Positions 2,096 to 21,259 of a DNA stretch of 48,239 bases are shown here, one piece after another; the first letter of the stretch is position 1; every line of letters starts with the position of its first letter. The translations under genes and the position numbers were made by a program. The DNA lies in assembly GCA_017621815.1 (NCBI GenBank), contig JAGASK010000024.1, positions 1 through 48,239 on the forward strand. The letters are read 5' to 3'. This DNA is from Lachnospiraceae bacterium (GTDB lineage Bacteria > Bacillota > Clostridia > Lachnospirales > Lachnospiraceae). Below the pieces are notes generated by a model. That model saw only the letters and a list, made by a program, of their open reading frames with translations. It had not been told where the DNA came from and searched no databases.

Positions 2096-3325
2096 TTATT
2101 TATTAAATAATTTCTTTAATGCATCTTCATTCAGCTTGGAACCAATAACACAGAACTTGCCGGTCACATCAGGTTTGCCGTCACGCACGTTGCTCTCTTC
2201 CGGAACATAATCAAAATAAATCCAGCCGCCGTTTTCAGCAGGAACCATACCTTTGGCACGGAGAACCACCCCATAGGTTTCTTCCTGTCCGAGAGCTTCC
2301 AGAATCTTTTCAATTTCTTCCTTACTGTAAGCTGCAGGTGTTTCCATACCCCAGCTGGTAAATACTTCATCAGCATGATGATGGTGGTGGTGATCATGGT
2401 CATGACAGCCGCAGGTGCAATTCTCATCATGTTCATGATGATGGTGTTCATGCTCGTCCTCGTCATGGTCGTGATGATGGTGATGTTCATGCTCGTCTTC
2501 ATCGTGGTCATGATGATGGTGATGCTCATGCTCGTCTTCATCTTCATCATGGTCGTGGTCATGGTGATGATGCTCATGTTCATCTTCGTCTTCATCATGG
2601 TCGTGGTCGTGATGATGGTGATGTTCATGTTCATGCTCATCTTCGTCATGGTGGTGCTCATGATGGTGATGATGCTCGTCCTCATCATGATGTGCCATAA
2701 TTTCTGCCATCAGTTCAGCTTCCAAATCCTTCGCCCCCTCAATAGTATCAAGAATGTCCTTTCCGTCCAGTTCATCCCATGGCGTAGTAATAATGGTAGC
2801 CTTGGCATTATGCTCCCTGATCAGGCTGATACAGGTATTTAATTTTTCTTCAGAAATATTGCCGGTACGGCTTAAAATAATGGTACCTGCATGAGCTATC
2901 TGATTGATAAAGAACTCACCGAAGTTCTTAATATACATTTTGCACTTGGAAGCGTCCACTACTGCAACCGCACTGTTTAAAACAACTTCCTTTTCGTCAA
3001 TCACATTCTGTACTGCTTTCATTACATCGGAAAGCTTGCCCACCCCTGAAGGCTCAATTAAAATACGCTCCGGCGCATAGGTTTTCATTACTTCTTTTAA
3101 AGAAGTTCCAAAGTCACCTACCAGGGAACAGCAGATACATCCGGAATTCATTTCCTTTATTTCAATACCTGCTTCTTTTAAAAAGCCGCCGTCAATTCCT
3201 ATTTCCCCGAATTCATTTTCAATCAGAACCACTTTTGTATCTGCCAAAGCATCCTTTAAAAGCTTCTTAATTAATGTTGTTTTACCTGCACCCAGAAATC
3301 CGGATACAATATCAATTTTCGTCAT
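2096..3325 (-). CDS. COG0523/CobW-family metal-chaperone GTPase with extended His/Asp/Glu tract
   Basis: Residues 9-17 are the Walker A motif GFLGAGKTT, the ENEFGEIGID segment is near 36-45, and C63-I-C65-C66 is the CxCC metal site defining COG0523 (ZNG1/YeiR/YciC-type zinc chaperones). From about residue 212 to 320 the chain is almost only His, Asp and Glu, ending in a CTCGC cluster. This is a far longer metal-binding tail than usual for the family. The C-terminal ~90 residues form the CobW_C domain. It should bind GTP and deliver Zn(II) to client enzymes under zinc limitation. It is the first gene of the operon, directly behind the promoter/operator at 3361-3402. The substrate metal is inferred from family and operator, not shown. 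Confidence 0.88.
   Translation of the reverse strand: MTKIDIVSGFLGAGKTTLIKKLLKDALADTKVVLIENEFGEIGIDGGFLKEAGIEIKEMNSGCICCSLVGDFGTSLKEVMKTYAPERILIEPSGVGKLSDVMKAVQNVIDEKEVVLNSAVAVVDASKCKMYIKNFGEFFINQIAHAGTIILSRTGNISEEKLNTCISLIREHNAKATIITTPWDELDGKDILDTIEGAKDLEAELMAEIMAHHDEDEHHHHHEHHHDEDEHEHEHHHHHDHDHDEDEDEHEHHHHDHDHDEDEDEHEHHHHHDHDEDEHEHHHHHDHDEDEHEHHHHEHDENCTCGCHDHDHHHHHHADEVFTSWGMETPAAYSKEEIEKILEALGQEETYGVVLRAKGMVPAENGGWIYFDYVPEESNVRDGKPDVTGKFCVIGSKLNEDALKKLFNK
2376..2700. repeat. In-frame tandem repeat encoding the His/Asp/Glu tract
   Basis: On the plus strand this is a low-complexity CATGATGATGGTG / TCGTCTTCATC alternation that encodes repeated DEDEHEHHHHHDHD-like blocks (14 and 17 residues, so 42 or 51 bases) inside the GTPase gene. 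Four to five blocks can be counted. Such a tract is liable to length change by slippage. It also creates long spurious open frames rich in Met, Ile and Thr on the other frames. Confidence 0.85.
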
Positions 3326-3583: not shown

Positions 3584-4705
3584 ATGTCTGAAAACACACA
3601 CATTTTTTCCGGCGAGGAAACTGCCGTTCCGAAGGTTCCTCTGCCTTCTTTTCTTTCTAAGGAAACTGTAGAGGCTTATTTCAAAAGTCATCCGGAAGTC
3701 TGGAATTACTATTTGCAGCTCCCATCATCCATGCAGGAAGAGCTTATATGTTTCTGCATGGGAAAGCAGGGTCTTAAAATAACATACGATTCTGTTTTTA
3801 AACAAATTTTTAATACAAACAGCGAAACCGGCTTCAAAAGGATTGAAAGGCTTTTGTCCGCCATCCTCTGCCGTTCCGTAAAAATCATCAGATTCATGCC
3901 AAGGGAAGGCACTCAGATGAGCGAATCTGCCAGCTTTGTAGTTATGGATATTCTGGTTCAATTGGAGGACAAATCTTTTGCCAATATTGAAATGCAAAAA
4001 ATCGGATATAACTTTCCCCTTTCCAGAGCCGACTGCTATGTTTCCGATATCATCATGCGTCAGTATGTAACTGCAAAGTCAGAACTTGGAAGTGAATTTT
4101 CTTTTAATGACATGCATAAAGTATACTGCATCATCCTAATGGAATATAGTCCTAAAGAGTTCCACTCTGTCCCCGGGAAATATATGCACAGACGTATTCC
4201 TTCTTTTGATACGGGTATTTATAAAAATTCTTCCGGGCTTCATGAAGATATCTTCATCTGCCTTGACAGTTTCCGTTCAATCGTACATACTATAACTAAA
4301 GAAAGTAATGAATTGGAAGCCTGGCTCACTTTCTTAAGTGCCACAGATGTGAATATCATCAGCGCACTAATTGAAGCTTTCCCTTCTTTTACTTCCATCT
4401 ATCAGGAAATTGCTGATTTTGTAAAAAATCCGGAGGAGTTGATTCATATGTTATCAAAAGAACTGTATATTATGGATAAGAATATGGAACGGCTGATGGT
4501 AGCACAGCTTCAGGAAGAAGTAAATGCTGAAAAAAAACGGGCTGATGACATTACAATTGAACGTGACAATGCTGTTACCGAACGTAATAATGCTATCGTT
4601 GAATGCCAAATTCTCAGACTCTCACGTAAGAACAGAAGTCCGGAAGAAATTGCCGATGCTTTGAAGCTTTCACTTGAGTATATAAATTCAATTTTAGACA
4701 GATAA
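3584..4705 (+). CDS. Rpn/PDDEXK_2-family nuclease (transposase-like) protein
   Basis: This 373-residue protein matches the Rpn/PD-(D/E)XK transposase-like family. The core D122-I-L-V and E136-x-Q138 (NIEMQ) are the D...ExQ catalytic signature, followed by a basic R/Y-rich helix (SRADCYVSDIIMRQY). Residues ~300-345 are a charged coiled coil rich in 'ERDNAV' units. The end (SPEEIADALKLSLEYI) looks like a short helix-turn-helix. Rpn proteins are DNA endonucleases that promote RecA-independent recombination, and they are usually chromosomal orphans in Clostridia. AAGGAGG lies before the start. It stands alone and converges on the chemoreceptor gene. Confidence 0.8.
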   Translation: MSENTHIFSGEETAVPKVPLPSFLSKETVEAYFKSHPEVWNYYLQLPSSMQEELICFCMGKQGLKITYDSVFKQIFNTNSETGFKRIERLLSAILCRSVKIIRFMPREGTQMSESASFVVMDILVQLEDKSFANIEMQKIGYNFPLSRADCYVSDIIMRQYVTAKSELGSEFSFNDMHKVYCIILMEYSPKEFHSVPGKYMHRRIPSFDTGIYKNSSGLHEDIFICLDSFRSIVHTITKESNELEAWLTFLSATDVNIISALIEAFPSFTSIYQEIADFVKNPEELIHMLSKELYIMDKNMERLMVAQLQEEVNAEKKRADDITIERDNAVTERNNAIVECQILRLSRKNRSPEEIADALKLSLEYINSILDR

Positions 4706-4771
4706 ACAACCAAACGATGCTCAGACACATCTATTTGGCTCGTGTTCGCCGAAATTAAATAGTTTTTCAAT

Positions 4772-4898
4772 AATATAAAGTACGCTTTGCGAACTTTATA
4801 TTATCATGAATAAAACAGAAGACATATCTCCGAATTCAGATATGCCTTCTGTTTTATTATTCATGACAATAGAAAGTTCACAGAATGTGCCTTCTATT
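4772..4898. repeat. Hairpin repeat pair flanking a long bidirectional terminator
   Basis: At 4772-4802 a nearly perfect hairpin (14-base arms, TTT loop) is followed by TCATGAATAAAA. A diverged copy lies on the minus strand from 4898 to about 4852. Between them a long stem (ATAAAACAGAAG ... CTTCTGTTTTAT, extended by ATGAA/TTCAT) spans 4804-4866 and would terminate both convergent genes. A third copy is at 7262-7305. Stem positions differ in a partly compensatory way between copies (ATATAAAG/CTTTATAT against ATAGAAG/CTTTCTAT), which suggests a structured multi-copy element. Confidence 0.65.
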
Positions 4899-4900
4899 TT

Positions 4901-5845
4901 TTACTCCATTTCCGCTATCATCGGGGCAATCTGGGAAAGCATATTGTCCATGCTCTCAAACATAGTGCTCTTGGTTGTTCCCAGTTTGCTTACCTTCTCT
5001 ATGTGCTGAAGCACATTCTGATACTGCCCTTCTATCCTGTCAAATGACCTGCCGACTTCTGCAAGTTCATCGGCAGCTGCCTCTGCTGCCTTTGCAATCT
5101 GCAGCTGCACTGCATCAGCTCCGCCTGCTGCAGTTGTTATTTTATCAAAGGTTTCATAAGTAGCATCCACATTTTCAATGCTTTGTCCAAGGGCTTTCTG
5201 GGAAGTTGCAATACTTGCATTGAGTTTATTTGTTCCCTGCTCAACATCATTAATACTGATATCAACCGTACTGACCAATCCCTTTATTTCATCAGCAAGC
5301 TTCTTTACTTCTTCCGCAACAACCGCAAATCCCTTTCCCTGTTCTCCGGCTCTTGCCGCCTCAATTGATGCATTGAGCGCCAGCATATTGGTCTGATTTG
5401 CGATGGAAATAATCTGACCCATGCATTCTGCAATCTTCTGTACAGCTATCTGGAAATCAGCGAATATACTCTGCATTTCGCCGAACCGCTCCTGAACCTC
5501 CTTAGAGCTTGTTTTAAGTCCTTTTACCTTATCCTGAGCTTCTTCCACGGTGCCCTTAATTTCCTTCTTTACATCAGCAAATCTTCCCGAAGCCTGTCCC
5601 ACCGATTCAAAGACACTGTTGAAGGAATTCAGTTTTTCCTTTAATGCATTGTTTCCCTGCAGAACTTCGTCAAAGGAAATCTGAACCTCCCGAAGTTCCT
5701 TAAGGGAATCCACTTCCTTAACAACCAGCTGCTGCTGATATTCTTTCAGACTGTTTGACACATAAACAATAGGATAATAATCTTTCTTTTGTACTGCCTG
5801 ATTTACTTCTGTTTTCTTTTCTTCTTTTTTACCAAATAAAAACAT
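4901..5845 (-). CDS. Soluble methyl-accepting chemotaxis-type signalling protein
   Basis: The 314-residue protein has no membrane segment. Residues ~145-185 are the conserved MCP hairpin tip ([20 protein letters not shown], then [16 protein letters not shown]). Long heptad helices flank it, and the N-terminal ~45 residues are short and lysine-rich. It should form the usual antiparallel four-helix bundle that contacts CheA/CheW in a cytoplasmic array, or signal independently of motility. It has no sensory domain of its own; the FIST protein encoded 21 bases upstream, in the same operon, is the obvious sensor partner. No che or flagellar operon is nearby. The start has AAGGAGAGG. Confidence 0.88.
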
Positions 5846-8294: not shown

Positions 8295-8634
8295 CTCCTT
8301 GCGGCCAAGTTAAATCCTGATTTTATCATAGTCACTTTTCTTATTATCGTCAATATTGTTAATTCCTGAGTGCTAATTACTGAGCATTTTTTATATTAGG
8401 TTTACAAACTTTCATATTAAAATAATCATTTTTTTTACAAAATTTTCCATTCAACTTTTTTGTAAAAATCTTCAACCTTTCAAGTTTTCGACATTTTTCG
8501 ACAATTTGCGACAATTTGAACAATTAAATTTTTATTATCAATAACTGTGGCGGCAAAAAAAGAATTTCCCATTTGTCTTGCTATGATAATTCCAGAATCA
8601 AGCAGCAAATATAAATCTGGGAGGGGATATTTTT
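8295..8634 (+). promoter_or_regulatory. agrB upstream region with 10-bp-spaced CGACA repeats
   Basis: This 340-base AT-rich gap contains no gene. CGACA occurs at 8489, 8499 and 8509, exactly one helical turn apart (unit CGACAATTTG), followed by a related AACAATT. A possible -10 (TATGAT, about 8580) has no good -35, as expected for an activated promoter. The phased repeats could bind a regulator such as one of the two LytTR proteins nearby, but they do not match the usual 9-base LytTR repeat, so this is inference. GGGAGGGG before 8635 is the agrB ribosome site. Confidence 0.4.
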
Positions 8635-9207
8635 ATGGATGCACTTATGCAGAAAGTGCAAAATGAATTTGGCTATTCTGACCGGGAAATCAGCCTGATA
8701 CGATATTCTCTTACTGCCATATGTTATGACTTCAGTAAAATTTTGATTTTCAGTATATTTTTTTACTGTACCGGCAAATTTATACAGTTTCTGTTTGCAG
8801 TGGTACCTCTGATATTGTTACGAAGCAAGACCGGGGGAATTCATTTTAAGACTTATTTAAGATGTCTTTTCTTTTCTTTTGCTTATCTTTACACAGCCAT
8901 AAATATCCTTCCTGCGCTGATACCTCTTCAGCCGTGGGCAATTTATTTAATACTATTACTGTGTGCAGTAACAGATTATATTGTGGGTCCTAATTCACTG
9001 AACAGGAAAGCAAAAAAGGATGATGCCTACATTAAGAAAGCCCGCTGTCAAACACTTCTGCTGATAGGATTTTTAGCAATGCTTGTTTTCCTGTTCTCAG
9101 CAAATGAATTTTTATTGGCAAGCTTTTGGACGATTGTATTGCATTCGATTCAATTGGCAATAACTCCCAAACTAAAGGAGGTGAAATATCATGAAAAGTT
9201 GGATTAG
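8635..9207 (+). CDS. agrB: AgrB-family accessory gene regulator peptidase
   Basis: The 190-residue polytopic membrane protein has the AgrB signature RSKTGGIHFKTYLRC, with catalytic H70 and C77 seven residues apart as in Staphylococcus AgrB (H77/C84). About five or six hydrophobic segments follow, and a GPNSLNRKAKKDD loop is typical of the family. It should cleave the AgrD C-terminal tail and cyclise the remaining peptide. GGGAGGGG precedes the start. Its 3' end overlaps the AgrD-like gene by 17 bases, giving coupled translation. The kinase and regulator genes lie convergently on the other strand instead of downstream as in classical agr. Confidence 0.92.
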   Translation: MDALMQKVQNEFGYSDREISLIRYSLTAICYDFSKILIFSIFFYCTGKFIQFLFAVVPLILLRSKTGGIHFKTYLRCLFFSFAYLYTAINILPALIPLQPWAIYLILLLCAVTDYIVGPNSLNRKAKKDDAYIKKARCQTLLLIGFLAMLVFLFSANEFLLASFWTIVLHSIQLAITPKLKEVKYHEKLD

Positions 9208-9328: not shown

Positions 9329-9360
9329 GTAGACATTCATAAGAATGTCTACTCTTTTTT
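9329..9360. terminator. Bidirectional terminator between agrD and agrC
   Basis: GTAGACATTC (9329-9338), loop ATAA and GAATGTCTAC (9343-9352) form a perfect 10-base stem, followed by TCTTTTTT on plus and CCCTTTTCTTTT on minus. It serves both convergent transcripts; the agrC stop codon lies inside the right arm. Confidence 0.88.
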
Positions 9361-10638
9361 GTTTATTATTACACCAAACTGCAGATAATTAATTCCACTT
9401 CTCTCACTATTGGTAACAATTAAATCCCCGTCCATTTCATGAACCATTTTCTTCAGCTTGGTTAAACCAATACCATGGCCTTTCCCTTTACTGGTAAAAT
9501 CCTTTTGGAAAAACTTATCAATTTCATCCTGACTAAACACCCTGCTGGTATTCTCTACCAAAAAAGCAAACTGCCACTTTCTGTCGCCTATTTCCACACG
9601 TACCTCCTTCGGCGTTATCTCGCTTTCCTCCTCAGCTTCTATGGCATTATCCAGAAGAATACCCAGCATCTCAACTAACTCATATTCCGGAATATAAAAG
9701 TCCGAGCTTCCCGCTATCACTTTATATTCCACATCAATTCCTTTTTCTTTCGCCTCCTGAATTTTACGATACAAAAAGCCTGCAATAAGAGGATTACCTG
9801 CTGTTAACAACAGCTTTGTTTCTTTACTCTTTTCCATTACCTTATTACAATATTCCTTTTGACTGCGAACCAGTTCATCATAATTATCAATGGTGTAAAC
9901 CATACCTAATATTGCACTGATATGATTCTTCAAATCATGCTGTCTTTCTCTGACCAATGTCAAAAGCTCATCATATGCATCATAATACAGCTTATTCATT
10001 TCAAGCTGCGTCTTTTTTCTTTCTGCCTCGGCTATTGCTTTCTGCCATTCATTAATGGCCAAAAAGAACAAAATAATAAAGAAAATAATTTGTATAAAAT
10101 CTTCATTATTTATTGATAAATTTATTTTCATATAGAATATATTAACAAAAAGATACAGCATTATTGAAACAAATAAAATTTTCATAATCCAACTTTTCTT
10201 TAATATGAAATCTGAAATTACCTTTAATTTTACTTTATTTCTTATCAACAAAACTGTACAAACACTTGCAATATTAACTATTAATTCTTCCAAACTAACG
10301 ACTTTCTCGTAAACACCCATAAAATAAAATACAGGAATATAGAAAATCAGTTGTAATACACTAATAATTGCAAATGATAACAAACAGTTTACTATTGTTA
10401 CTTTAATATTCCTTTTATACACGAACAAACTATATATAAAAATTGCAATATATGCTAAAAATGCCATATAGGCTGGAAAACTATATGAATTAATACCTGT
10501 AAATATAAACAAGTATACAATTATTAATACTATCATATACCTATCAAACTTCACTTTTTTATCAAATAAATTAGACAAACTAATCAAAACTACAAATAAT
10601 TCTAAAACCAACGCAACACTTTCAATTATCCCTGACAT
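9349..10638 (-). CDS. agrC: AgrC-like sensor histidine kinase (GHKL, HATPase_c_5 type)
   Basis: About six hydrophobic helices (residues ~5-195) form the sensor. A dimerisation helix with RERQHDLKNH follows (phospho-acceptor H234), then an N-box LLDNAIEAEEE (N331) and a GHGIGL G-box (387-392). This is the layout of AgrC and other HPK10 peptide-pheromone kinases. It should sense the AgrD-derived cyclic peptide at the membrane and phosphorylate the LytTR regulator encoded just upstream, with which its start overlaps by 17 bases. Ligand identity is inferred from the adjacent agrBD pair. Confidence 0.88.
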   Translation of the reverse strand: MSGIIESVALVLELFVVLISLSNLFDKKVKFDRYMIVLIIVYLFIFTGINSYSFPAYMAFLAYIAIFIYSLFVYKRNIKVTIVNCLLSFAIISVLQLIFYIPVFYFMGVYEKVVSLEELIVNIASVCTVLLIRNKVKLKVISDFILKKSWIMKILFVSIMLYLFVNIFYMKINLSINNEDFIQIIFFIILFFLAINEWQKAIAEAERKKTQLEMNKLYYDAYDELLTLVRERQHDLKNHISAILGMVYTIDNYDELVRSQKEYCNKVMEKSKETKLLLTAGNPLIAGFLYRKIQEAKEKGIDVEYKVIAGSSDFYIPEYELVEMLGILLDNAIEAEEESEITPKEVRVEIGDRKWQFAFLVENTSRVFSQDEIDKFFQKDFTSKGKGHGIGLTKLKKMVHEMDGDLIVTNSERSGINYLQFGVIINKKE

Positions 10639-11347
10639 TTCTCATAAACCTCTTCTTAAATATGATTCCTATTTCAACTAATTCTTTTCTGCCTCTTAAC
10701 TTTATATATCGGTTAACTTCGTCAATACTTTCAATAAAATCTTTATTAATTATGGTAAATCTGCTGCACTGAACGAACTTACTTGAACATAGCTCTTCCA
10801 GGATTGCCTTGCTGGGCTTGTAAGGCAATTCCAAATCTCCATTTACAGCATGAATAATTCTGCCGCTTCTTGCATTTTCAATATACATGATTTCAGAAAT
10901 TCCAAGCTTGTACAAAATACCTTCTTTACGAAAGAAAATGCTCTGATCGCAGCACTTCTCCACGGGAAGATACAACGCATCTTTTATAATCTGAGTTACT
11001 TTCACTATATTGTATGGCTTTTCAATGTACTGGAAACAATGGATTTCACTATAGGCATATAGCTTAGGATCTTCTAAAGAAGTTATGAAAATAATCGGAG
11101 TATATGTATATCTGCTAAAACTTCTTACATTATTTGCAAACCTGATACCGGAAACATCACCACTATCTTGAGGATTTAATATAATGTCGACCAAAAACAA
11201 ATCAACATCATTTTCTACAGCCAGTAAATAAGCAGTTTCTATAGAAGATGCTGTCTTAAGGTTAATATCTCTATCAATACCCTGAACAATCTTTATCAGT
11301 ACTTCCAAACTTCTGACATTATCCTCAACAATCAAAACCGTTTTCAT
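10622..11347 (-). CDS. LytTR-family response regulator (AgrA-like)
   Basis: The 241-residue protein has an N-terminal REC domain (VEDN at 8-10, phospho-acceptor D54 in LFLVDIIL, K110 in IEKPY) and a C-terminal LytTR DNA-binding domain (FFRKEGILYKLGISEIMYIEN ... SRFTIINKDFI). It is sandwiched between an XRE regulator gene (17-base gap) and the AgrC-like kinase (overlap), so all three form one operon. Its natural targets would be direct repeats at the agrB promoter and its own regulon. It resembles the second regulator at 11999-12733 along its whole length, suggesting duplication. Confidence 0.88.
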   Translation of the reverse strand: MKTVLIVEDNVRSLEVLIKIVQGIDRDINLKTASSIETAYLLAVENDVDLFLVDIILNPQDSGDVSGIRFANNVRSFSRYTYTPIIFITSLEDPKLYAYSEIHCFQYIEKPYNIVKVTQIIKDALYLPVEKCCDQSIFFRKEGILYKLGISEIMYIENARSGRIIHAVNGDLELPYKPSKAILEELCSSKFVQCSRFTIINKDFIESIDEVNRYIKLRGRKELVEIGIIFKKRFMRNVRDN

Positions 11348-11364: not shown

Positions 11365-11772
11365 CTATTTCTTTTTATCTTCAAACAGTTCTTTAAATTT
11401 CTCAGTTGTCTCTTCCCAATCCGGGCCTTGTTTGAAAATTCTACGCTTGCCTTCTACAAAATAAACCATTAAGTGTGCCAAGGCTTTCATTTTATCATTT
11501 TCTGACGCATTTTCCAAGAGAAAGAGCAGTTTTTCAGAATCAGTAATCTCGCCAAACAATAAATAATCTATGGAAACATTAAAATTCTGCCTCAATAACA
11601 GCATTACATCTTTAGAAATACCATAATTACCTTTCTCATAGTCTCTGACTGCATTTGTTGTTACTTTTAAAATTTCAGCCATTTGCTCCTGAGTTAAATT
11701 GTTCGATTCCCTTATTTCCTTTATTCTCTTACCAACTTCTTCATTATTAATAGAACCTTTATAATCACTCAT
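11365..11772 (-). CDS. XRE-family helix-turn-helix regulator
   Basis: The 135-residue protein has a Cro/C1-type HTH at about residues 14-70 (GKRIKEIRESNNLTQEQMAEIL, split here at VTTNAVRDYEKG), followed by a helical tail of unknown role. It is the first gene of the XRE-regulator-kinase operon. GGAGG lies 8 bases before the ATG. A role in controlling the quorum operon, possibly by autoregulation at the palindrome upstream, is likely but unproven. Confidence 0.8.
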   Translation of the reverse strand: MSDYKGSINNEEVGKRIKEIRESNNLTQEQMAEILKVTTNAVRDYEKGNYGISKDVMLLLRQNFNVSIDYLLFGEITDSEKLLFLLENASENDKMKALAHLMVYFVEGKRRIFKQGPDWEETTEKFKELFEDKKK

Positions 11773-11998: not shown

Positions 11999-12733
11999 TT
12001 AATTTATTGTTTTGAAAAATGCTTTCAGGGATTTTTTATAACTATGCCCGATTTCCACTCTGCCATATCCGTCTTTTAGCTGAATTACTCTATTGGTAAT
12101 ATCGATATTGTTAATAAATGCAGAATTAACAACAGTGTTTCGGCGGCATTGAACCATATCAGGATTATCCATCCTGTCTATCATCTGCCGCAAAGTCATA
12201 TACGGAATATGAAGCAATTTTCTTTCATTCGTATGTAAATACAACTCCTGCTTCACCATTTCCGCATATACGATTTCTTCCCTGCCGATTGCAATGATGA
12301 TTCCATCTTTACGAAAATAAAGAATTCTGTCATCACGATCGTTTCCCGGAAATTTCAAGCTTTCCTCAACAAGCTTTTTTACCCTGCCTTCATCAAAAGG
12401 CTTTTCAATAAATCCATAGCAATGTAGTTCTTCATATGTATACAGCCTGGAATCCTCCAATGCAGTAACGAATATAACCGGAGTAAACAAATACTTATCA
12501 AGATGGCGCATATCATCCACAAATTTTAAGCCGGATGAATCCCCCATAACAGAAGGCTCCAATATGATATCCACGATAAATAAATCAATAGTTGTATTCA
12601 TGGCACATTTGTATGCTTCGGCTACATTATCCAATGCAAAGATTTCAACCTTTCCACAAGATTCTACAATGCGCTCCAACCACGCCAGTGTATTCTTCTG
12701 GTCCTCTACTATCAGTACTTTTTTCAAATGCAC
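11999..12733 (-). CDS. Second LytTR-family response regulator
   Basis: It has a REC domain (KKVLIVEDQ start, phospho-acceptor Asp in LFIVDIIL, lysine in IEKPFD) and a LytTR domain (YFRKDGIIIAIGREEIVYAEM ... NTVVNSAFINNIDI, ending in a basic KKSLKAFFKTIN). It is a close paralogue of the regulator at 10622-11347 but has no kinase gene of its own. The likely start is GTG at 12733, preceded by GAAGAAGGA; an upstream ATG at 12769 would add 12 residues not seen in the paralogue. It may share the AgrC-like kinase, giving a branched pathway. Confidence 0.85.
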   Translation of the reverse strand: MHLKKVLIVEDQKNTLAWLERIVESCGKVEIFALDNVAEAYKCAMNTTIDLFIVDIILEPSVMGDSSGLKFVDDMRHLDKYLFTPVIFVTALEDSRLYTYEELHCYGFIEKPFDEGRVKKLVEESLKFPGNDRDDRILYFRKDGIIIAIGREEIVYAEMVKQELYLHTNERKLLHIPYMTLRQMIDRMDNPDMVQCRRNTVVNSAFINNIDITNRVIQLKDGYGRVEIGHSYKKSLKAFFKTIN

Positions 12734-12907
12734 GTTTCCTTCTTCAGAGATATCCCGATATTTGCACACCGGAATATAACTTCTTTTCTTCCTCCCATTT
12801 TATTCTGTTTCTGACTGCAATCTCTATCAATAGACTTATTTTAACACATTTGAGACCGCAAAACTATCTTTTTCTTTTCTGTACAAAAAAGTATAAATAT
12901 TATAACC

Positions 12908-13152
12908 GCGGCAGCGTTATCCTCCTGCATCACCTCGGCCGGTACCGTGTATCAACAGTACCGTTCGCTGCCGTCCCCATAGATGATGCAGGAGGCTCGG
13001 CCATTCCTCTTTCATATCCCACAATCCCATGTTGGCAAATACTTAAGAAGAATGCCAGGAATAACACCGGAAAGCCTGAAACCACTTGGCGGACTTTCCT
13101 ATGTCATGAAATATAGAAGCCGAAGTAAATCGGCTATCCGAAAAATATTCGG
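12908..13152. ncRNA. Candidate structured non-coding RNA with large pseudoknot
   Basis: A GC-rich island inside a 750-base AT-rich gap. GCGGCAGCG (12908-12916) pairs with CGCTGCCGT (12966-12974), and CCTCCTGCATCA (12921-12932) pairs perfectly with TGATGCAGGAGG (12984-12995). The two stems interleave, forming a pseudoknot or an either/or switch. CGGTAC/GTACCG (12940-12963) forms a hairpin within the loop. Four more hairpins follow: TGGCA/TGCCA (13033-13057), GGAAAG/CTTTCC (13069-13099), AGCCGA/TCGGCT (13118-13135) and CCGAA/TTCGG (13138-13152). Frames across it have no coding character. The strand is unresolved: plus has a weak hairpin plus T-run at 13262-13290, minus has a TATAAT at 13236-13231 and would lead into the second LytTR gene. 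I could not assign a family. Confidence 0.6.
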
Positions 13153-13516
13153 TCAGCGAAGCATATGCAAACAGGATTCTTTTCCGCACATTACCTGGCT
13201 GCTTCTGCTGTCCGCCCTTTACACATTTAGATTATATACCTAATGGGCGAAAAAAATAGTACATTGTATCGAAATGTGTTTTTTTATACCACGAAACTAC
13301 TTTTTTTACCATTTTTTGCTATTTTTTTCGTTTTTATACAAAAATTTGATATATTCAGCAAAAAATTTCAACGAAAACATATCTAAGAAATTATATCATA
13401 TAAATTATATTAGTTTAAACAGATGTAACTTCTTATCCCCCCTTTTATGGAAAGAAATACTAAAGCCAAAAGAGACTCCGGAAGAAATCCTCAAAATCCC
13501 TGCTGCTGTTTCGTAT
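13153..13516. other. AT-rich gap, no gene
   Basis: After the structured segment the sequence falls to AT-rich, T-run-laden DNA. GTACATT ... AATGTGT followed by seven T (13259-13290) is a weak plus-strand terminator. A minus-strand TATAAT is at 13231-13236. The short plus-strand frame near 13440-13558 shows no family resemblance. Confidence 0.45.
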
Positions 13517-15247
13517 TCACATATTAAAATAAGATTTCATTTCTGCCTGAAAAGATGAATGTCTGGGAAATTTTCTTTTATATTCTGAAAAAACCTGCCT
13601 TCTGGCACTCGTCTGTCCCATGCTCTCCTTTATTTCCGCAGTCATTGCCAAAAGAACAGCAACCTCTCCATAATGTCTTCTGTATTGTCCGCCTACAATT
13701 GCATCTGCCCTGCTGTTCACGATTCTCTCCACCCAGCCAAGATACTTTTTCTTTTCTTCCTGAGTCATTGGGAAATAAGCTTTCCACCGCTGAAAATAAT
13801 TCCAGAATGTACTTACTTTACACCTGCGGCTCTCTTCTATGATTTCCCTTTCAAAGCCCATTAAACAGTTTGAATCTGTATCATCCCTGAAACCAATATC
13901 ATCAGCAACGCTTGCTGCAGCCCTGGAGGGCAGCTTTTCTTCATATAGGTATAATAAAAACAGCCGGATGCCCTTCCGGATAAATCTGCTGCTCCATCCC
14001 AGTGAGCCGTTGGGATTCTTTGATGCTGTCCTTGCCGTGTTAAAATCACCTGTATAAAAGCTCAAGCTGTAATAGCTGTCATCATCTATACTATTCCGGC
14101 AAGATTCTGCATTGCTGCTGCCTGCTGCCGGATTTTCCTTTTCTCTCCCGCAAAGGACTTCCCTGCCTCTCATCCCATACTCTTCCGCCATTTCCTTTGT
14201 TCCAAACAAACGCAGAAAATTTCTATCCGTGGAATCAGAACGGAAAGCTTCCCAACAAAACCGCATAACATTGTCCGTATGCATCAGGCAGGATGCGGCA
14301 TAAGCCGCCATCAACGCTGTTTTGCTCCTGATAATCAACCAGGCATCCAGCTTTCTCAATGCTGTTTTCCCAATCTCTTCTATCCGCTCATAATCATGTT
14401 CTTCATTATATGCCTTCATTGCTGTCAGATACAGGGAAGGGTGAATACGATAGTTTTCATCTGCTGCCTTTACAAGCCCTTCTATGCCTTCCGTATACAG
14501 AAGTGCTTCCTTTAAAAACCTTCCTTCCGCTTCTCCGCCTTTTGTTTTCAATAACGCAATCCAGTCCTGCCAGAACTGCCCGGCTCCCGGCAAATTTTCC
14601 CTGCCCATACGGAACATATCTTCTATATGCAGCCTTCGGAATGTATAATAACAGAAATAGGCGTAAATCTTTTCTGCGCGCTTATCCGCTTCCGTCACCT
14701 GATAAGCTGCATAAAGCGTCAGTAGTGCCAGCTGCTCCATATCCGTATGGATAATGTCCTTTTCCGCCAGCATTTCCAAATCAACAGGTTCAGCATCATA
14801 TTCACTGTCGGTACTCACATACATTTCCCACAGCCAGTCATAGATAAAACAGGCATCCTGATATTTCAGGTCATCAATGCAATCCTTTGCAAACAAAATC
14901 ATCACTTCCAGCTTGTTTCCGATTTCCTGATTATCATAATAATCCGTAATCCAGTCGCTGTCCCAATATCCGCTGGAATAATCTTCGTATTCATCTATGT
15001 CAAGATACAGTTCCCCCTCATCAATCTGTTTCATCCAACTTTTAATCTGTTCCATTTTTTCTGTCACAGTTTCCTGTGACATTCTTACCTTCGACTTCGC
15101 TTTTTCAGTTTCCGTCCTATCTTCACCATAGCCTTCCACCAGTTCTTCCAGTTTCAGCCGCTGTTCCTCCGAAAGGAAATCCGTCATATCCAGCAATATT
15201 TCCTGCAGTTTTTCTTTACTGAGTCCTTTCAGTTTTTCCTCCATCAT
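13517..15247 (-). CDS. Large helical hypothetical protein, partner of the SEC-C protein
   Basis: About 576 residues from the ATG at 15247 (AGAGGTAG upstream); an earlier in-frame ATG lies inside the preceding gene and is unlikely. The protein is helical and acidic. It opens with a KLKGLSKEKLQEIL segment of the kind seen in SWIM-type zinc-finger proteins, but no CxC...CxH zinc motif is visible. The middle has repeat-like helical pairs (IHPSLYLTAMKAYNEEHDYERI), suggesting a TPR/ARM-like solenoid. No catalytic motif was recognised. It is encoded 10 bases after the SEC-C protein and follows the primase-helicase gene, so it may be part of a three-gene defence-type unit. Confidence 0.6.
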   Translation of the reverse strand: MMEEKLKGLSKEKLQEILLDMTDFLSEEQRLKLEELVEGYGEDRTETEKAKSKVRMSQETVTEKMEQIKSWMKQIDEGELYLDIDEYEDYSSGYWDSDWITDYYDNQEIGNKLEVMILFAKDCIDDLKYQDACFIYDWLWEMYVSTDSEYDAEPVDLEMLAEKDIIHTDMEQLALLTLYAAYQVTEADKRAEKIYAYFCYYTFRRLHIEDMFRMGRENLPGAGQFWQDWIALLKTKGGEAEGRFLKEALLYTEGIEGLVKAADENYRIHPSLYLTAMKAYNEEHDYERIEEIGKTALRKLDAWLIIRSKTALMAAYAASCLMHTDNVMRFCWEAFRSDSTDRNFLRLFGTKEMAEEYGMRGREVLCGREKENPAAGSSNAESCRNSIDDDSYYSLSFYTGDFNTARTASKNPNGSLGWSSRFIRKGIRLFLLYLYEEKLPSRAAASVADDIGFRDDTDSNCLMGFEREIIEESRRCKVSTFWNYFQRWKAYFPMTQEEKKKYLGWVERIVNSRADAIVGGQYRRHYGEVAVLLAMTAEIKESMGQTSARRQVFSEYKRKFPRHSSFQAEMKSYFNM

Positions 15248-15257
15248 AACACTACCT

Positions 15258-16316
15258 CTATTTTTTGCCGCAGCATTTCTTATATTTCTTTCCGCTTCCG
15301 CAGGGACACGGATCATTGGGATAAATCTTCTTTTCCTTTACAATGGGTTTTTGTACCGGTATTTTGAAATCATCATTTATATCATTATAATAGTCTGCTT
15401 CTTCTATGGTTTTCCAACAAACCTCAAGCTGTGACTCAATCCATTTTAAATCATCCGTCAGATTAAGATGCTTTGCCAGAATTTTTGCCCTTTCAAACAA
15501 AAGGCTGTTATTCATTGTGCAGGGAACGCCAATCACTTCTTTTCGAATCAGATAATAAGCTGCCTCTGCCCCTTCCTTCGCCTCCACGCACCAGCTGAAT
15601 GCACTCCATGCATTTTCATTATGAGGTTCCCTTTTCAGCCAGTTTTCAAACCACTCCCTGCCTTCTTTTTCTTTCCCTTCAACATAAAGTTCTTCGCCAA
15701 CAGCCGATAAAAAATTACTGTCATCATCATAGGTCCAATCCAGCATCTCCAAAACGGCGTTGCAGAAATCCAAACGTTTTTGGTGCTCTCCTGCATTTCC
15801 AAGTTCCATCTCAAAATCCTGAAGCCACGCATCCACCGGATACCGATAATCCTGCTCCTCCATCAACCCGCTGACGCTGTTTTTTTCCTTTTCCTGTCCG
15901 ATTATCTTCCGGAATATTTCCCATGCTTTCCACCAACAATCTATTAATGCTTCATTCTTCTGCTTTTCCTGAGCTTCATATCCGCACTGCACAAGCTCGT
16001 CCCATTCATCCCATTCTGTAGGAATTGCATGGACATCTTCAAAATCCAGGCTTTGCTGTACCATCTCCTCTAATGCCTGTGTATATCGTTCCTCATTATA
16101 AGCCTGCTTTTCTTTCAGGACATCATAAATTTCCGACAGCACGACCGCACCGATTTTCTCCTTTGCTTCCCTTCTGGAATATCCTGCATCAAGAAGTTTT
16201 TGATATGCCATGCCCGTTTCCGGCGGATTATTATCCCTTAACTGATTGTCCACAACTTCCAATATCGTTTTCTTCAACCGTAAATTTGCCATTTCCTTTT
16301 TCTTACTCCTTATCAT
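15258..16316 (-). CDS. SEC-C motif protein with helical repeats
   Basis: The last 20 residues are a clear SEC-C zinc motif, [15 protein letters not shown], as at the end of SecA. Before it the ~330-residue body is helical and acidic with TPR-like stretches ([19 protein letters not shown]). SEC-C motifs bind Zn and act as adaptor modules to proteins or ribosomes. The start is uncertain: ATG at 16316 has a weak ribosome site, while the ATG eight codons later is preceded too closely by AAAAGGAA. The gene is 150 bases after the primase-helicase and 10 bases before the large helical protein. Its function is unknown. Confidence 0.7.
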
Positions 16317-16465: not shown

Positions 16466-19417
16466 TTAACTTTCTTCTTTCAGTGCAATTTCCAACAATT
16501 CCGCTGCGACCTGCGCAGATTTAATCCGCATCAGATTATCCCACGCATCTTCTTTTCCAAGCAGATTCATGCCACCGTGCCATACAAGTTCATCATCTAT
16601 AATGGCAAAATGCTCTGCCACCTCATCCCTTACAATTACATGAACGCCATTTCCCTGCATTTCTTCAATCAGTTTCTGACAGAATTCTGAACTTCCATAA
16701 AATATATTCAGCGGATTTGTTGTTATGACCGTAACCGTTATTCCGGCCTCCTGTCTTGCTTTTACAAGATAAATAAAACGTTCCACCTTATTATGCGTAA
16801 GCCCAGGGCTGGATACAATAACCTTATTTTCAGCCTCGACAACATCCCGTTCAAATACATCCGCATAATTTCCAGAATCATAAATCGAATTTACGGTCTG
16901 TTTTGAAAGAATGGCATTTGTAATCAACTGAAACCCTGTCCGCTTATATGTACGCAGCCTCTTTGCATACATATTGTCAAAAACCCGAATGTGGGCGTCC
17001 ACATAATCATAGACTATGACTTCCTTTTTTCCTTCATAGTCACGATTCAATCTTCCAATGTACTGCTCAAGCCTTCCTGCAAAGGATACCGGAGCCGCCA
17101 GCATCAGGGTATCCAGTCTCGGATAATCAAAGCCTTCACCGATCTTCTGGCCCGTTGCTACCAGAATCAGGCTCTGCTCCCTTAACACTTCTTTCATTTT
17201 TCTTCTCACATCAGAATTTTCCTTATCACTGTTATCCCCATATAAAAGAAACACTCTATCTGCATCCTGTTGCAGATTATCGTACAGGTATTTCGCCTGT
17301 TCTTTATACCTTGTCAGAATTACCGGAGTTCTTCCCTCTTTCACACACGTTCTCGTATCTTCAAGAATCATATCATTTCTGACAGAACTTGTACTGATCA
17401 GAGAATATGCTCCGTTAATATCACTTCTGCTTTCATTCGTATCGACGACCCTTGTATATCTCGGATACACATAGTGCCCAATTCCCTGTTCGACAGCGCG
17501 TTCTTTTGCAGTATAACTGTGCCTTATCGGCCCTAACAGCATATGAATGATTTTCTCCAGATTATCCCCTCTTTTCGGCGTTGCCGATACACCGTAAACA
17601 TATCTGGCATTGACTTTCTGCATGACCTCAATCGATGTATTGGAGCCGCAATGGTGGCATTCATCCATTATCACCATACCATAGGAGTTAATCAATTCAT
17701 TAAAATCTCCCTTGCTGTACATGGAACCGACCATGGCAACATCAACAATACCTGTCAATGTATTTTTACTGCCATGTAAAATACCAACCACACTGTCTCT
17801 GCGCTTTTTCCTGCCGCTTTTCGTTTTATAAACCGGAGGTTCCTCATCTATGTGCAAAAATTTATTTAATTCCTCTACCCACTGTTCCAGCAAATCCTTA
17901 CTTTGAAGCAAAATCAAAGTATTTACTTTTCTTTCTGCGATAAGATAGCTGCAAACCACGGTTTTACCAAATGCAGTGGCTGCACTGAGAATACCATGAT
18001 CATATGCAAGCAGACGTTCCGCTGCCAGATTCTGCTGTGTTCTCAAGTCTCCACAAAAGGAAACTCTTATGGGCCTCCCCTTTTCTCTATGATCCACAAT
18101 TTCATAATCAATGCCTGCCTCTTTGCAGGAAATGATAAGATTATCACGAAGACCTCTGGGAATGCGGATATATCCATCCGTATCCTTTCCCATGTAAATA
18201 GCGCTGAAATTATAATAATTGGAATATCCAAGCCTTTTATTTTTATAAAAAACGGGATTGTCAAAGGCTGCCATACTTCTGATCTGATTCTGCAAGCGCG
18301 GCATCAAATTTAATGTATCAACATATATGCCATCTCCAAGAACGATATGCATTTTCCCTATAACATCTGATTTTACAAAACCATCTTTTTTCTTCCAGGG
18401 CTTCGGACGATTTTGGGGAATTGAAGAAGGCAGCATTCCCTTTTCTCCGGCAAGTTCTTCCTGCCAGCATGCCATGCACTTTTCTATTTCTTCTATTGAC
18501 AGCTTTTTCGTTTGCTTCAGCAGAACATCCCACTGGTCAGGATATGCGTTCCAATTTTTATCAACAAAAGCACTGTTTCCATGTTTCAATGCCTGTCCCT
18601 GTAATGGTAATGCAATCAGATTCCCGATACTGCTGGCAACATCCTGAGATGGATACATACGATCATAATAATGAAAAGATTTCAGATTAATCAAAGCTGA
18701 CCCTTTATCCAGCAAAAGGAAACCAAAATTTCTTGCAAGAGATGCGGATACCGGCTTTTTGAAAAATATCCATACATGTGCACCTTTTCCTGACCTCGAC
18801 CGTTCCACCAGCGGCGTTATACCATTACTTTCACAAATGACTCTTAAAGCATCAACCTCTTCATGCCATTCATCATCCACATTGGCAAAATCCGTCTTTT
18901 CAGCGCCTTTTTCATGATTATCAAAATCAAAAACCAGAAAACGGCAGGTTCCATCCGGAAGCAGCGGATATATCCCCAATACATCTGCGCCATCTTCTCT
19001 ATATCCACAAAGGTGCTCTATTATTTTCTTTGGTTCAAGCTTTGTCCATGACCTGTGTGCGCAGGCTTCACAGCTGATTTTTTCACCATGCTGTTTGGGG
19101 CATATCTGATTGTTCCACCTGTTATCGCATTGTGGAAAATAGCCGCCCTTTACGCCTCTTTTTGCATAAACGTCTGTCCTGCCCCAAAACATTGCAAAAT
19201 ACTTATTAACCAGATTTTCCGTAATGTATTTATTCAGAATTCGTCCTCCCTGATCAGGATCATATTCTTCTGCGTTTTCTATTTTTCCTTCAAATACATT
19301 CTCTGACTCATAAACAATACCAGCCTTTTTAAGCTGGGTTTTTAATTTTCTGTTTTCATTCTGAAGGCTTCGGACCAGTTTTCGAAGCGAATCAAGATTG
19401 TATGCTTCTATGTTCAT
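16466..19417 (-). CDS. TOTE-type primase/SF2 helicase/PLD-like protein
   Basis: A 983-residue multidomain protein. Residues 5-35 are a coiled coil. C97, C106, C116 and C119 form a zinc cluster. An archaeo-eukaryotic primase domain has the catalytic FDFDN (D164, D166) and the SGKGAHVWIFF strand. An SF2 helicase core follows (Walker A TAFGKT near 481-486, DECH 585-588, SATPKRG, GEGFDYP, QYIGRLNRD). The C-terminal ~130 residues are PLD-like (HFAIIDDELVWHGGMN) with the usual HKD lysine absent. This order matches the 'TOTE conflict system' primase family, predicted nucleic-acid-targeting defence factors. It should act on invader DNA or replication intermediates; the target is unknown. The start follows AGAGGT. 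Confidence 0.82.
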   Translation of the reverse strand: MNIEAYNLDSLRKLVRSLQNENRKLKTQLKKAGIVYESENVFEGKIENAEEYDPDQGGRILNKYITENLVNKYFAMFWGRTDVYAKRGVKGGYFPQCDNRWNNQICPKQHGEKISCEACAHRSWTKLEPKKIIEHLCGYREDGADVLGIYPLLPDGTCRFLVFDFDNHEKGAEKTDFANVDDEWHEEVDALRVICESNGITPLVERSRSGKGAHVWIFFKKPVSASLARNFGFLLLDKGSALINLKSFHYYDRMYPSQDVASSIGNLIALPLQGQALKHGNSAFVDKNWNAYPDQWDVLLKQTKKLSIEEIEKCMACWQEELAGEKGMLPSSIPQNRPKPWKKKDGFVKSDVIGKMHIVLGDGIYVDTLNLMPRLQNQIRSMAAFDNPVFYKNKRLGYSNYYNFSAIYMGKDTDGYIRIPRGLRDNLIISCKEAGIDYEIVDHREKGRPIRVSFCGDLRTQQNLAAERLLAYDHGILSAATAFGKTVVCSYLIAERKVNTLILLQSKDLLEQWVEELNKFLHIDEEPPVYKTKSGRKKRRDSVVGILHGSKNTLTGIVDVAMVGSMYSKGDFNELINSYGMVIMDECHHCGSNTSIEVMQKVNARYVYGVSATPKRGDNLEKIIHMLLGPIRHSYTAKERAVEQGIGHYVYPRYTRVVDTNESRSDINGAYSLISTSSVRNDMILEDTRTCVKEGRTPVILTRYKEQAKYLYDNLQQDADRVFLLYGDNSDKENSDVRRKMKEVLREQSLILVATGQKIGEGFDYPRLDTLMLAAPVSFAGRLEQYIGRLNRDYEGKKEVIVYDYVDAHIRVFDNMYAKRLRTYKRTGFQLITNAILSKQTVNSIYDSGNYADVFERDVVEAENKVIVSSPGLTHNKVERFIYLVKARQEAGITVTVITTNPLNIFYGSSEFCQKLIEEMQGNGVHVIVRDEVAEHFAIIDDELVWHGGMNLLGKEDAWDNLMRIKSAQVAAELLEIALKEES

Positions 19418-19930: not shown

Positions 19931-21259
19931 TTATCTGCTCTTTTTACTCTGTAGCATATTCTGATCCCTTATATTCACAATCCATTGTCCATTTTTCTTG
20001 GCACCAATTCTCTCAATAATACCCATTTCTCTTAATTGACGAATCCGCTTTGTAATCGTAGTCGTTCCCAATCCAACCAGTTTGCTGATTTCACTAACTT
20101 TAATACTACTATTTTTTTTCATTAATCTAAGTATTTCTTCATCACGCTCATCAATCAACTGTTCTTCTTTTTTCAACAAATCATTTTCTGCTTTTTTCTT
20201 CTTATTTAATGGAATTGTTACTGTAATAAAATTTTCCGTAATGTCAAATACCTCTTTTCCATATTTCGATACAATCAAAGGGACTCCATGTCCAGTCTGC
20301 TCAATATAATCTAATTGAACCATAATCTGTTGAAGTTCCAGATTTACCGGCTTGCTTTTTCCTTCATAAAACTCTTCCAGTGTGAGTCCATCCGGCAATC
20401 CCCCAACTGATACAATTTCTATGCGGTCATCAAACATATACACAGCCGGCGGTGTCTGTCTTGACCAGCGATTATGCAGACATGCGTTCAACCACGCTTC
20501 CCTGAAACATGAAAAATCAAACAACCTGCTCTCCTTTCTAAGACTGCCGCCCACATCCACTACAGTATCATTTAATGCCTCCATATAGTCCAGCACCTGC
20601 TTCACTGCTACAAGCATGCACTTATAACCATATTCATTCCTCTTAACCAAATCCGTCTTGTCCGTCCCACGGAATACTGCGACTTTAATGGAGTAGCTGT
20701 TGATGTCTGCCAAAATAGCCGCCATTAAATTGTAAGCTCCATCGCGTGTTAAAAGATTCAAATTCTGCTTAAAAGTATTCTCCCGAAGCGTAAGTCCATT
20801 TCCGACATACAACATTTTCAATTGGTCAAAGGTTAACTCCTGATTATTCGCCTCAATATTTACAATGGAATCCGATACACTAAGCATCAGACTACGTAAT
20901 TGCTGCGGTGATATTTCCCTGTCTTCGTCAGCCGATCTCATATAATACTTCCCATATGCCGAATAAGGTCTTTCATCTCCTTCAACAGTAACTTTTATTA
21001 CATTTTTATCATCACACAATTCCATAATAATCGTCGGAATAACCTGTGGTTTAATTGCATTAGCAATTCCCTGGGATATCTCACGCAATGTACGATCTCC
21101 AATTTGCTGACCTATGACTTCGCCATCATTTCTTACTCCGAAATACAATGTGCCTTTTCCATTTTTATTCAACATAGAAGCCAGAGAAACGATACCTTCT
21201 TTTAATTCGCCGGTTGTTTTTTTGAACTCGACTAGTTCCGTTTCCATTCCAAAATTCAT
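19931..21259 (-). CDS. AlbA_2/Schlafen-type ATP-binding transcriptional regulator
   Basis: The 442-residue protein begins with an AlbA_2 domain (ETELVEFKKTTGELKEG, GTLYFGVRNDGEVIGQ, residues ~5-125). A GHKL-like ATPase segment follows (FREAWLNACLHNRW, DDRIEIVSVGGLPDGL, TGHGVPLI, about 250-345), and a C-terminal winged helix-turn-helix (DEEILRLMKKNSSIKVSEI, then SKLVGLGTTTITKRIRQLRE). This is the common 'ATP-binding/RNA-binding domain-containing' regulator class, often near mobile or defence genes; its ligand is unknown. GGAGTGATGGT precedes the ATG; a second ATG four codons later is also possible. Confidence 0.8.
   Translation of the reverse strand: MNFGMETELVEFKKTTGELKEGIVSLASMLNKNGKGTLYFGVRNDGEVIGQQIGDRTLREISQGIANAIKPQVIPTIIMELCDDKNVIKVTVEGDERPYSAYGKYYMRSADEDREISPQQLRSLMLSVSDSIVNIEANNQELTFDQLKMLYVGNGLTLRENTFKQNLNLLTRDGAYNLMAAILADINSYSIKVAVFRGTDKTDLVKRNEYGYKCMLVAVKQVLDYMEALNDTVVDVGGSLRKESRLFDFSCFREAWLNACLHNRWSRQTPPAVYMFDDRIEIVSVGGLPDGLTLEEFYEGKSKPVNLELQQIMVQLDYIEQTGHGVPLIVSKYGKEVFDITENFITVTIPLNKKKKAENDLLKKEEQLIDERDEEILRLMKKNSSIKVSEISKLVGLGTTTITKRIRQLREMGIIERIGAKKNGQWIVNIRDQNMLQSKKSR

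Follow-up and report, generated by a model that had tools for sequence, protein, structure and literature searches.

Here, we identified a candidate structured RNA of about 340 nt on the minus strand of an agr-like locus in a Lachnospiraceae genome (Table 1). With a probability of about 0.4, our main reading is that of a discrete structured regulatory RNA under LytTR control within this locus. The broader statement that a structured minus-strand RNA exists here, either as a regulatory RNA or as a leader, appears likely. All coordinates refer to the window, i.e., the whole stretch of DNA that was analysed (48,239 nt).

Table 1. Positions of the candidate RNA, its predicted elements and the neighbouring genes
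Feature	Position	Strand	Basis
Structured RNA candidate, ~340 nt, closing stem and six hairpin domains	12885..13224	-	folding statistics
Three TTTCG copies, starts 13296, 13274 and 13252, with a spacing of exactly 22 nt; candidate direct repeats of LytTR type	13248..13296	-	sequence
TATAAT, perfect -10 box, ends 7 nt before predicted start ~13224	13231..13236	-	sequence; hexamers read by eye
Closing stem, 5' strand: GTGTAAA (13224-13218) and GCGGACAGC (13215-13207)	13207..13224	-	predicted fold
Hairpin A, 19 pairs	13154..13201	-	predicted fold
Hairpin B, 5 pairs	13138..13152	-	predicted fold
Hairpin C, 6 pairs; also terminator-like	13118..13135	-	predicted fold and consensus scan
Hairpin D, 18 pairs	13061..13107	-	predicted fold
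Hairpin E, 23 pairs	12998..13057	-	predicted fold
Hairpin F (the CCTCCTGCATCA stem of the sequence-only reading), 15 pairs; inner stems of 4 and 9 pairs	12921..12995	-	predicted fold
Hairpin F loop strand CGGCAGCG, can pair with 12909-12916 (pseudoknot)	12966..12973	-	duplex -17.2 kcal/mol
Closing stem, 3' strand: GCTGCCGC (12915-12908) and TTTATAC (12897-12891)	12891..12915	-	predicted fold
T6 run, possible 3' end, directly past the last paired base of the closing stem	12885..12890	-	sequence
RR2, response regulator, Response_reg and LytTR; next gene downstream of the RNA	11999..12769	-	Pfam
XRE-type helix-turn-helix protein	11365..11772	-	HTH_3
RR1, LytTR response regulator of the agr pair	10622..11347	-	Pfam
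GHKL histidine kinase, AgrC-like	9349..10638	-	HATPase_c_5
AgrB	8635..9207	+	PF04647, E 8.8e-25
Probable AgrD signal-peptide precursor, 42 aa	9191..9319	+	position after agrB and sequence shape only; no Pfam match

Inverted repeats, strand and extent of the candidate RNA

A previous sequence-only reading had proposed a large structured RNA at 12908-13152, with interleaved stems of 12 and 9 bp, in a GC-rich, non-coding segment. Both repeats were found in the places it gave: CCTCCTGCATCA (12921-12932) pairs with TGATGCAGGAGG (12984-12995) and CGGCAGCG (12909-12916) pairs with CGCTGCCG (12966-12973), the two stems being interleaved. The length of the longer stem was right, and it extends to 15 nt at 93%, whereas the ninth pair of the shorter one is a G-T pair, leaving a perfect core of 8 bp (8 bp on the minus strand as well). 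When perfect repeats within 80 nt were counted in 1000 dinucleotide shuffles of 12908-13152, 12 bp was reached in one shuffle, 9 bp in 40 and 8 bp in 153; the 12-bp stem exceeds chance expectation and the shorter stem by itself does not. The base composition was also as described, with a GC content of 0.483 at 12895-13215 versus 0.333 (12740-12880) and 0.255 (13250-13500) in the flanks.

The most plausible reading of the inverted repeats is as elements of a minus-strand RNA running from about 13224 to 12885. On this strand the segment has a minimum free energy (MFE) of -136.4 kcal/mol and is more stable than shuffled sequence, as would be expected of a structured non-coding RNA (z -6.85, 0/300 shuffles as stable); the plus strand gave z -4.28, likewise with 0/300. 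The same difference between the strands was observed for 12880-13170 (minus -6.0, plus -4.0) and after extension to 13230 (minus -6.7, plus -4.7). In the fold of 12880-13230, G-U pairs made up 16 of 117 pairs on the minus strand versus 3 of 91 on the plus strand, and the minus strand was preferred because of its lower z-scores together with these G-U pairs. Thus, folding statistics agree with the earlier proposal of a large structured RNA, whereas its strand and extent had to be revised, to the minus strand and to about 340 nt rather than 245 bases. The fold extends past 13152, which adds the closing stem and the first long hairpin.

We also tiled the window (146 tiles on each strand, 292 in total, with 12 shuffles per tile) and compared these tiles with a 330-nt stretch from 12885, which lies off the tile grid. 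The candidate had the largest excess folding energy (-32.7 kcal/mol), followed by tile 4621 on the minus strand (-31.6 kcal/mol), whereas by z-score tile 4621 was more extreme (-6.95 versus -6.27 for the candidate in this comparison). This tile, which has the lowest z-score of the window, contains strong hairpins at 4705-4901 between convergent genes, with sub-threshold Rfam matches only; they are probably a two-way terminator.

The earlier description of the segment as non-coding was supported. Three open frames (51, 86 and 174 aa) had no Pfam match, and the 51-aa and 86-aa frames had neither an NCBIfam match nor, among the 36 remaining genomes of the genus, a relative at E<=0.01. Another reading is that the RNA encodes a small peptide, such as the product of the 51-aa frame that begins with GTG (13085-12930) and has a hydrophobic start. 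Such a frame is present with a possible ribosome-binding site (AGGAAAG) 8 nt upstream, and there is a precedent in RNAIII, which encodes delta-hemolysin as stated in the RNAIII passages of PMC4227749. On the other hand, the frame crosses hairpins E and F and shares the absence of relatives and of Pfam and NCBIfam matches noted above, so that we regard a peptide mRNA as highly improbable.

Predicted RNA ends and competing pairings

Both predicted ends of the RNA lie close to recognizable sequence signals (Table 1). The putative promoter at the TATAAT has no good -35 hexamer and was therefore not listed by the consensus promoter scan. No consensus terminator was called by the scan at the T6 run; the only terminator-like site listed on the minus strand here is hairpin C, which is inside the RNA, and shuffled versions of that region average 1.2 such sites. 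If the RNA is taken to start at 13224, positions 13224-13218 pair with 12897-12891 and 13215-13207 with 12915-12908 (8-bp inner stem). If the start is moved 6 nt earlier to 13230, the lower part of the closing stem shifts register (13229-13223 with 12900-12894) and the upper part remains the same. The closing duplex was equalled by 44/5000 shuffles, the joined hairpin by 32/2000, and 24 of 1295 end pairs in the window did as well. This statistic is modest (about 1-2%) and was tested after the fold had been seen, so that it is helpful, not strong.

Two further elements were observed upstream. One is a second promoter-like site on the minus strand (13390-13419, 10/12, with TG before the -10), which would start at about 13383 and give a longer form of the RNA. 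The other is a perfect 12-bp inverted repeat, CGAAAAAAATAG / CTATTTTTTTCG, at 13248-13259 and 13319-13330, which spans the promoter region of the RNA and may be either an operator or a hairpin of an upstream transcript.

The 3' strand CGCTGCCG (12909-12916, minus strand) has two competing partners, the closing stem and the loop of hairpin F, with duplex energies of -14.1 and -17.2 kcal/mol, respectively. A pseudoknot usually costs several kcal/mol. The nested MFE (-136.4 kcal/mol) has to be set against the best nested fold in which the bases of the pseudoknot are left open (-122.3 kcal/mol) plus the -17.2 kcal/mol duplex, before any such penalty. Given the usual penalty, the closed form is favoured over the pseudoknot by a few kcal/mol in this model, and two mutually exclusive forms of the RNA are possible. 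The sequence-only reading had held that the interleaved stems require a pseudoknot or two exclusive folds. The pairing itself is indeed feasible, but a nested fold, in which the strand concerned is paired with the RNA's 5' end instead, scores better.

It had also offered two readings, a stand-alone RNA or a long leader of the second LytTR gene, RR2. As a structured 5' leader acting in cis, the RNA would control the transcription or translation of RR2 through the choice among three pairings of its 3' strand (closing stem, pseudoknot and a small local hairpin). The RNA is immediately upstream of RR2 on the same strand, no terminator-like site is listed between them on the minus strand, and the 3' strand has three mutually exclusive partners. 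However, the first listed start of RR2 lies 116 nt beyond the T6 run, two overlapping weak promoter-like sites (9/12 each) lie in between, the RNA has termini that can base-pair and that lie near the -10 box and the T6 run, and no anti-terminator/terminator pair is evident. Because this pairing of the outermost bases varies with the start that is assumed, we slightly reduced the weight of the stand-alone RNA and slightly increased that of the leader. Considering both sides, we find a leader somewhat unlikely, and a stand-alone regulatory RNA is the reading to which we assign the probability given at the outset.

As such a regulatory RNA, it would be switched on when either RR2 or RR1, the latter as a partner of the AgrC-like kinase, binds the 22-nt-phased repeats just upstream of the RNA promoter; binding of a LytTR regulator may be what activates a promoter with a perfect -10 box and no good -35 hexamer. 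The RNA would then act in trans on target mRNAs or on a protein as the output arm of signalling. Its closing stem would join the two ends, and its 3' strand could swap to the hairpin F loop, which may produce two forms.

The agr-like locus and the repeats upstream of the RNA

Judging from its gene content, the locus is agr-like and is predicted to encode AgrB, a probable AgrD, a GHKL kinase, a LytTR regulator, an XRE-type protein and the orphan LytTR regulator RR2, which has no kinase gene of its own alongside. The candidate is encoded within this agr locus, as is the case for RNAs of the RNAIII type, with AgrB, the AgrC-like kinase and the LytTR regulators adjacent. The kinase matched the staphylococcal AgrC model NF046015 with E 2.7e-11 and 43.3 bits, which is far under the cut-off of 500. 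Elsewhere in the window, the list of open frames contains two GTPase-like proteins (1136-2086 and 2096-3325), one with a long His/Asp/Glu-rich run, which are perhaps metal chaperones.

AgrB matches at E<=1e-15 were present in 30 of the 37 genomes of the genus, that of the window included. We examined 30 regions around AgrB from 29 other genomes of the genus: 24 had one regulator locus and none had a second, and the remaining six had no regulator in the stretch, several of them being truncated by contig ends. In a midpoint-rooted tree of 30 regulators (L082 was left out because of a stop), RR1 grouped with regulators of two loci from the same genus (support 100/98), and RR2 with regulators of four loci from other genera of the family (support 100/99). 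RR2 may be either an arrival from another lineage or an old paralogue retained here. When 84,980 species genomes were scanned for proteins closely related to RR2, one locus was obtained, in which neither of our RNA structure models (R1 and R2, see below) matched; the only named relative was from Lachnospiraceae bacterium UBA7188, with 51% identity. In four of the collected loci (L088, L095, L099 and L102), a stretch resembling TCAAATATAGGTCTAAAGTGGGAA...CCGTAAAAT was seen by eye before the XRE-type gene, and it is probably a conserved promoter or operator.

Upstream of the RNA promoter, and counted from the predicted start, the G bases of the first two TTTCG copies fall at about -68 and about -46. 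Any 5-mer of three or more letters occurring three times at 21 or 22 nt was counted in shuffles of the 198-nt region, and one of 5000 had any such case; the triple had been noticed before testing, and the region was picked after the repeats were seen. Published LytTR sites, as described in the pertinent part of PMC6193735, consist of direct repeats with 11-13 bp between them, slightly upstream of the -35 element. For AgrA, the section of PMC4227749 on its promoters describes binding to two direct repeats at both P2 and P3, with the promoter-proximal ones centred near -60. In Clostridioides difficile, RgaR activates agrB1D1 as well as the small RNA SpoZ, and the direct repeats of spoZ have a key G at -51 and -72 according to the promoter description in PMC10602386.

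The motif TTTCGANA occurs at four sites in the window when both strands are considered, at 8486 and 8496 (upstream of agrB), 13274 and 20264, and its presence at both agrB and the RNA promoter suggests a shared regulator. The site at 20264 falls outside the agr locus, within a Schlafen/AlbA-type gene (19931-21259). Upstream of agrB in the window there is also a pair of TTCAAC sequences 21 nt apart (8450 and 8471), which differs from the TTTCG repeats, and repeats of the TTCAGT type with the same spacing were seen by eye, uncounted, upstream of agrB in several loci of the genus. Neither motif was seen by eye before the RNA, and the missing TTCAGT type makes a link to RR1 weaker. Given their difference from the TTCAAC pair of agrB, the TTTCG repeats are no more than a candidate site for a LytTR regulator.

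Further upstream on the same strand, a predicted conflict or defence island is formed by a 983-aa protein (16466-19417) in which AEP-TOTE primase and helicase domains are accompanied by a PLD match below threshold, a SEC-C protein (15258-16316) and a 599-aa protein (13517-15316) without a Pfam, NCBIfam or PADLOC match. No paper on 'TOTE conflict' was found by word search of open papers. The candidate might be a non-coding part of this island, with which it is co-directional and which has an AEP-TOTE match at E 2.7e-76. However, about 290 nt of mostly AT-rich sequence with a -10 box of its own separate the gene for the 599-aa protein from the RNA. Relatives of the 599-aa and 983-aa proteins were absent from the viral contigs searched, those of the 599-aa protein from the plasmids, and those of all three proteins from 35 fetched loci, so that there are no relatives for comparison and an island link gains no support. 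We consider this origin very unlikely.

Homologue searches and known regulatory RNAs

The whole window had no Rfam match at the gathering threshold, raiA included, although raiA is among the 4227 Rfam families. At E<=10, the region 12880-13240 gave a single match of 12.8 bits versus the 77.3 needed, which is noise, as with relaxed E-values in general. The suggestion that the segment could be raiA or another large Firmicutes RNA was thus not borne out. The scan at gathering also left out a tRNA-Leu that ARAGORN found in one of the fetched loci (L110, 4676-4759), which calls for caution with the Rfam negatives.

By blastn, the matches besides the window itself were only stretches of 20-47 nt, in one of the 36 other genomes of the genus and in 34 others of a sample of 397 genomes from the family (2/37 and 35/397 when the own genome is counted). 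The own genome gave 25 further matches at E<=10, the best with E 0.014. As relatives of the RNA these short matches were rejected: a mechanical frame check placed 27 of 37 loci (L002-L038) in open frames of at least 200 codons, and seven loci were inspected (L002, L003, L009, L011, L013, L016 and L027). L013 recurred with the structure model R2 at E 0.023 and sits upstream of what reads as a glutamine synthetase gene.

R1 and R2 are single-sequence models, and in the large sets, which were scored with stricter filters, they could miss distant relatives. In the same genus and family sets they gave only three matches besides the window (E 0.023, 0.024 and 0.38), below the number expected by chance; with a limit of E<=0.05, chance alone should give about 20 matches in the 397 genomes, and two besides the window were observed. 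In the 35 fetched loci, the only match on the RNA strand was to the window, and R1 also gave a weak match (E 0.71) to the window's own stem read on the other strand. The 30 AgrB regions from the 29 other genomes gave no match. Plasmids searched for the RNA had no match, one 19-nt pattern did not occur exactly in viral contigs, and the phage search returned five records, all with one common 27-nt stretch around the -10 box.

We then scanned upstream folds (20 shuffles each) in the 29 of 35 loci that hold a regulator (six do not), and 15 of them had a segment below z -2.5. Nine of the 29 were inspected: tRNA genes accounted for L078 and L110 and terminator-like hairpins for L077, and the upstream folds of the other six (L079, L088, L095, L099, L102 and L105) match neither R1 nor R2. 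L079 was rejected as a counterpart, its z of -6.4 (one segment, 25 shuffles) changing to -2.4 for the chosen stretch (200 shuffles) with an unconvincing alignment. In L099, an intergenic stretch of about 450 nt, some 1157-710 nt upstream of the LytTR regulator and on its strand, reached z -5.8 (20 shuffles) and has no R1 or R2 match and no Rfam match at gathering.

With no homologue there is no covariation, and a single sequence cannot prove selection on structure. It might therefore be asked whether the segment is ordinary intergenic DNA rich in inverted repeats and devoid of RNA function, for example debris of the event that brought RR2. That none of the sets searched contained a homologue fits this explanation, and because RR2 groups with regulators of other genera, the stretch may be foreign DNA. 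It accounts poorly for the largest excess folding energy against 292 tiles, the strand bias, and the -10 box with phased repeats upstream, and we regard it as quite doubtful.

RNAs driven by response regulators that are named together in a passage of PMC10602386 include RNAIII, SpoZ, VR-RNA, VirT and VirU. SpoZ of C. difficile resembles the proposed mode of action of the window RNA in that a response regulator switches it on from direct repeats spaced by 21 nt, and RgaR, which also activates agrB1D1, is called an orphan regulator, just as RR2 has no kinase gene alongside (SpoZ account in PMC10602386). It differs in its length of 528-560 nt and in its neighbour, a 58-aa antisense ORF, not a regulator (same account, PMC10602386). 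This is a likeness of descriptions, in which we infer the regulation of the window RNA. VR-RNA, VirT and VirU of Clostridium perfringens, activated by the VirS-VirR two-component system and named beside RNAIII there (PMC10602386), are likewise comparable by description. The raiA motif RNA is another large structured RNA in Bacillota and differs in that it gave no match in the Rfam scans.

RNAIII is itself among the Rfam families, and the scan revealed no sequence homology to it. Its ends pair together, as those of the window RNA do in the predicted fold. It also has C-rich unpaired loops, which were not seen in the window RNA and, together with the missing Rfam match, set the two apart. Moreover, P3 of RNAIII diverges from the agr operon promoter, whereas the window RNA points at an extra regulator gene. 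In Staphylococcus aureus, RNAIII is transcribed from the AgrA-activated P3 inside the agr locus, a promoter preceded by direct repeats of LytTR type and with -35 and -10 elements that are suboptimal as a pair (PMC4227749). The candidate likewise lies inside an agr locus, and its predicted promoter has candidate repeats of this type upstream and a poor -35 region. The window RNA matches nothing in Rfam and would be new as a sequence; as a kind, it would be a variant of RNAIII, SpoZ and VR-RNA.

A more far-reaching proposal is that of an undescribed RNA family, serving as the quorum-controlled output of a non-staphylococcal agr system, gained along with an orphan LytTR regulator from a different lineage and switching between closed and pseudoknotted forms via the shared 3' strand; taken as a whole, this seems unlikely. 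Word searches of open papers found no literature on the outputs of the agr-like loci of this genus, in which such loci are common (30/37 genomes with an AgrB match). If our main reading is true, the output of one such agr system would become directly testable as a compact RNA next to an additional LytTR regulator, and the case would illustrate how a regulator and its RNA can join a resident quorum-sensing locus.
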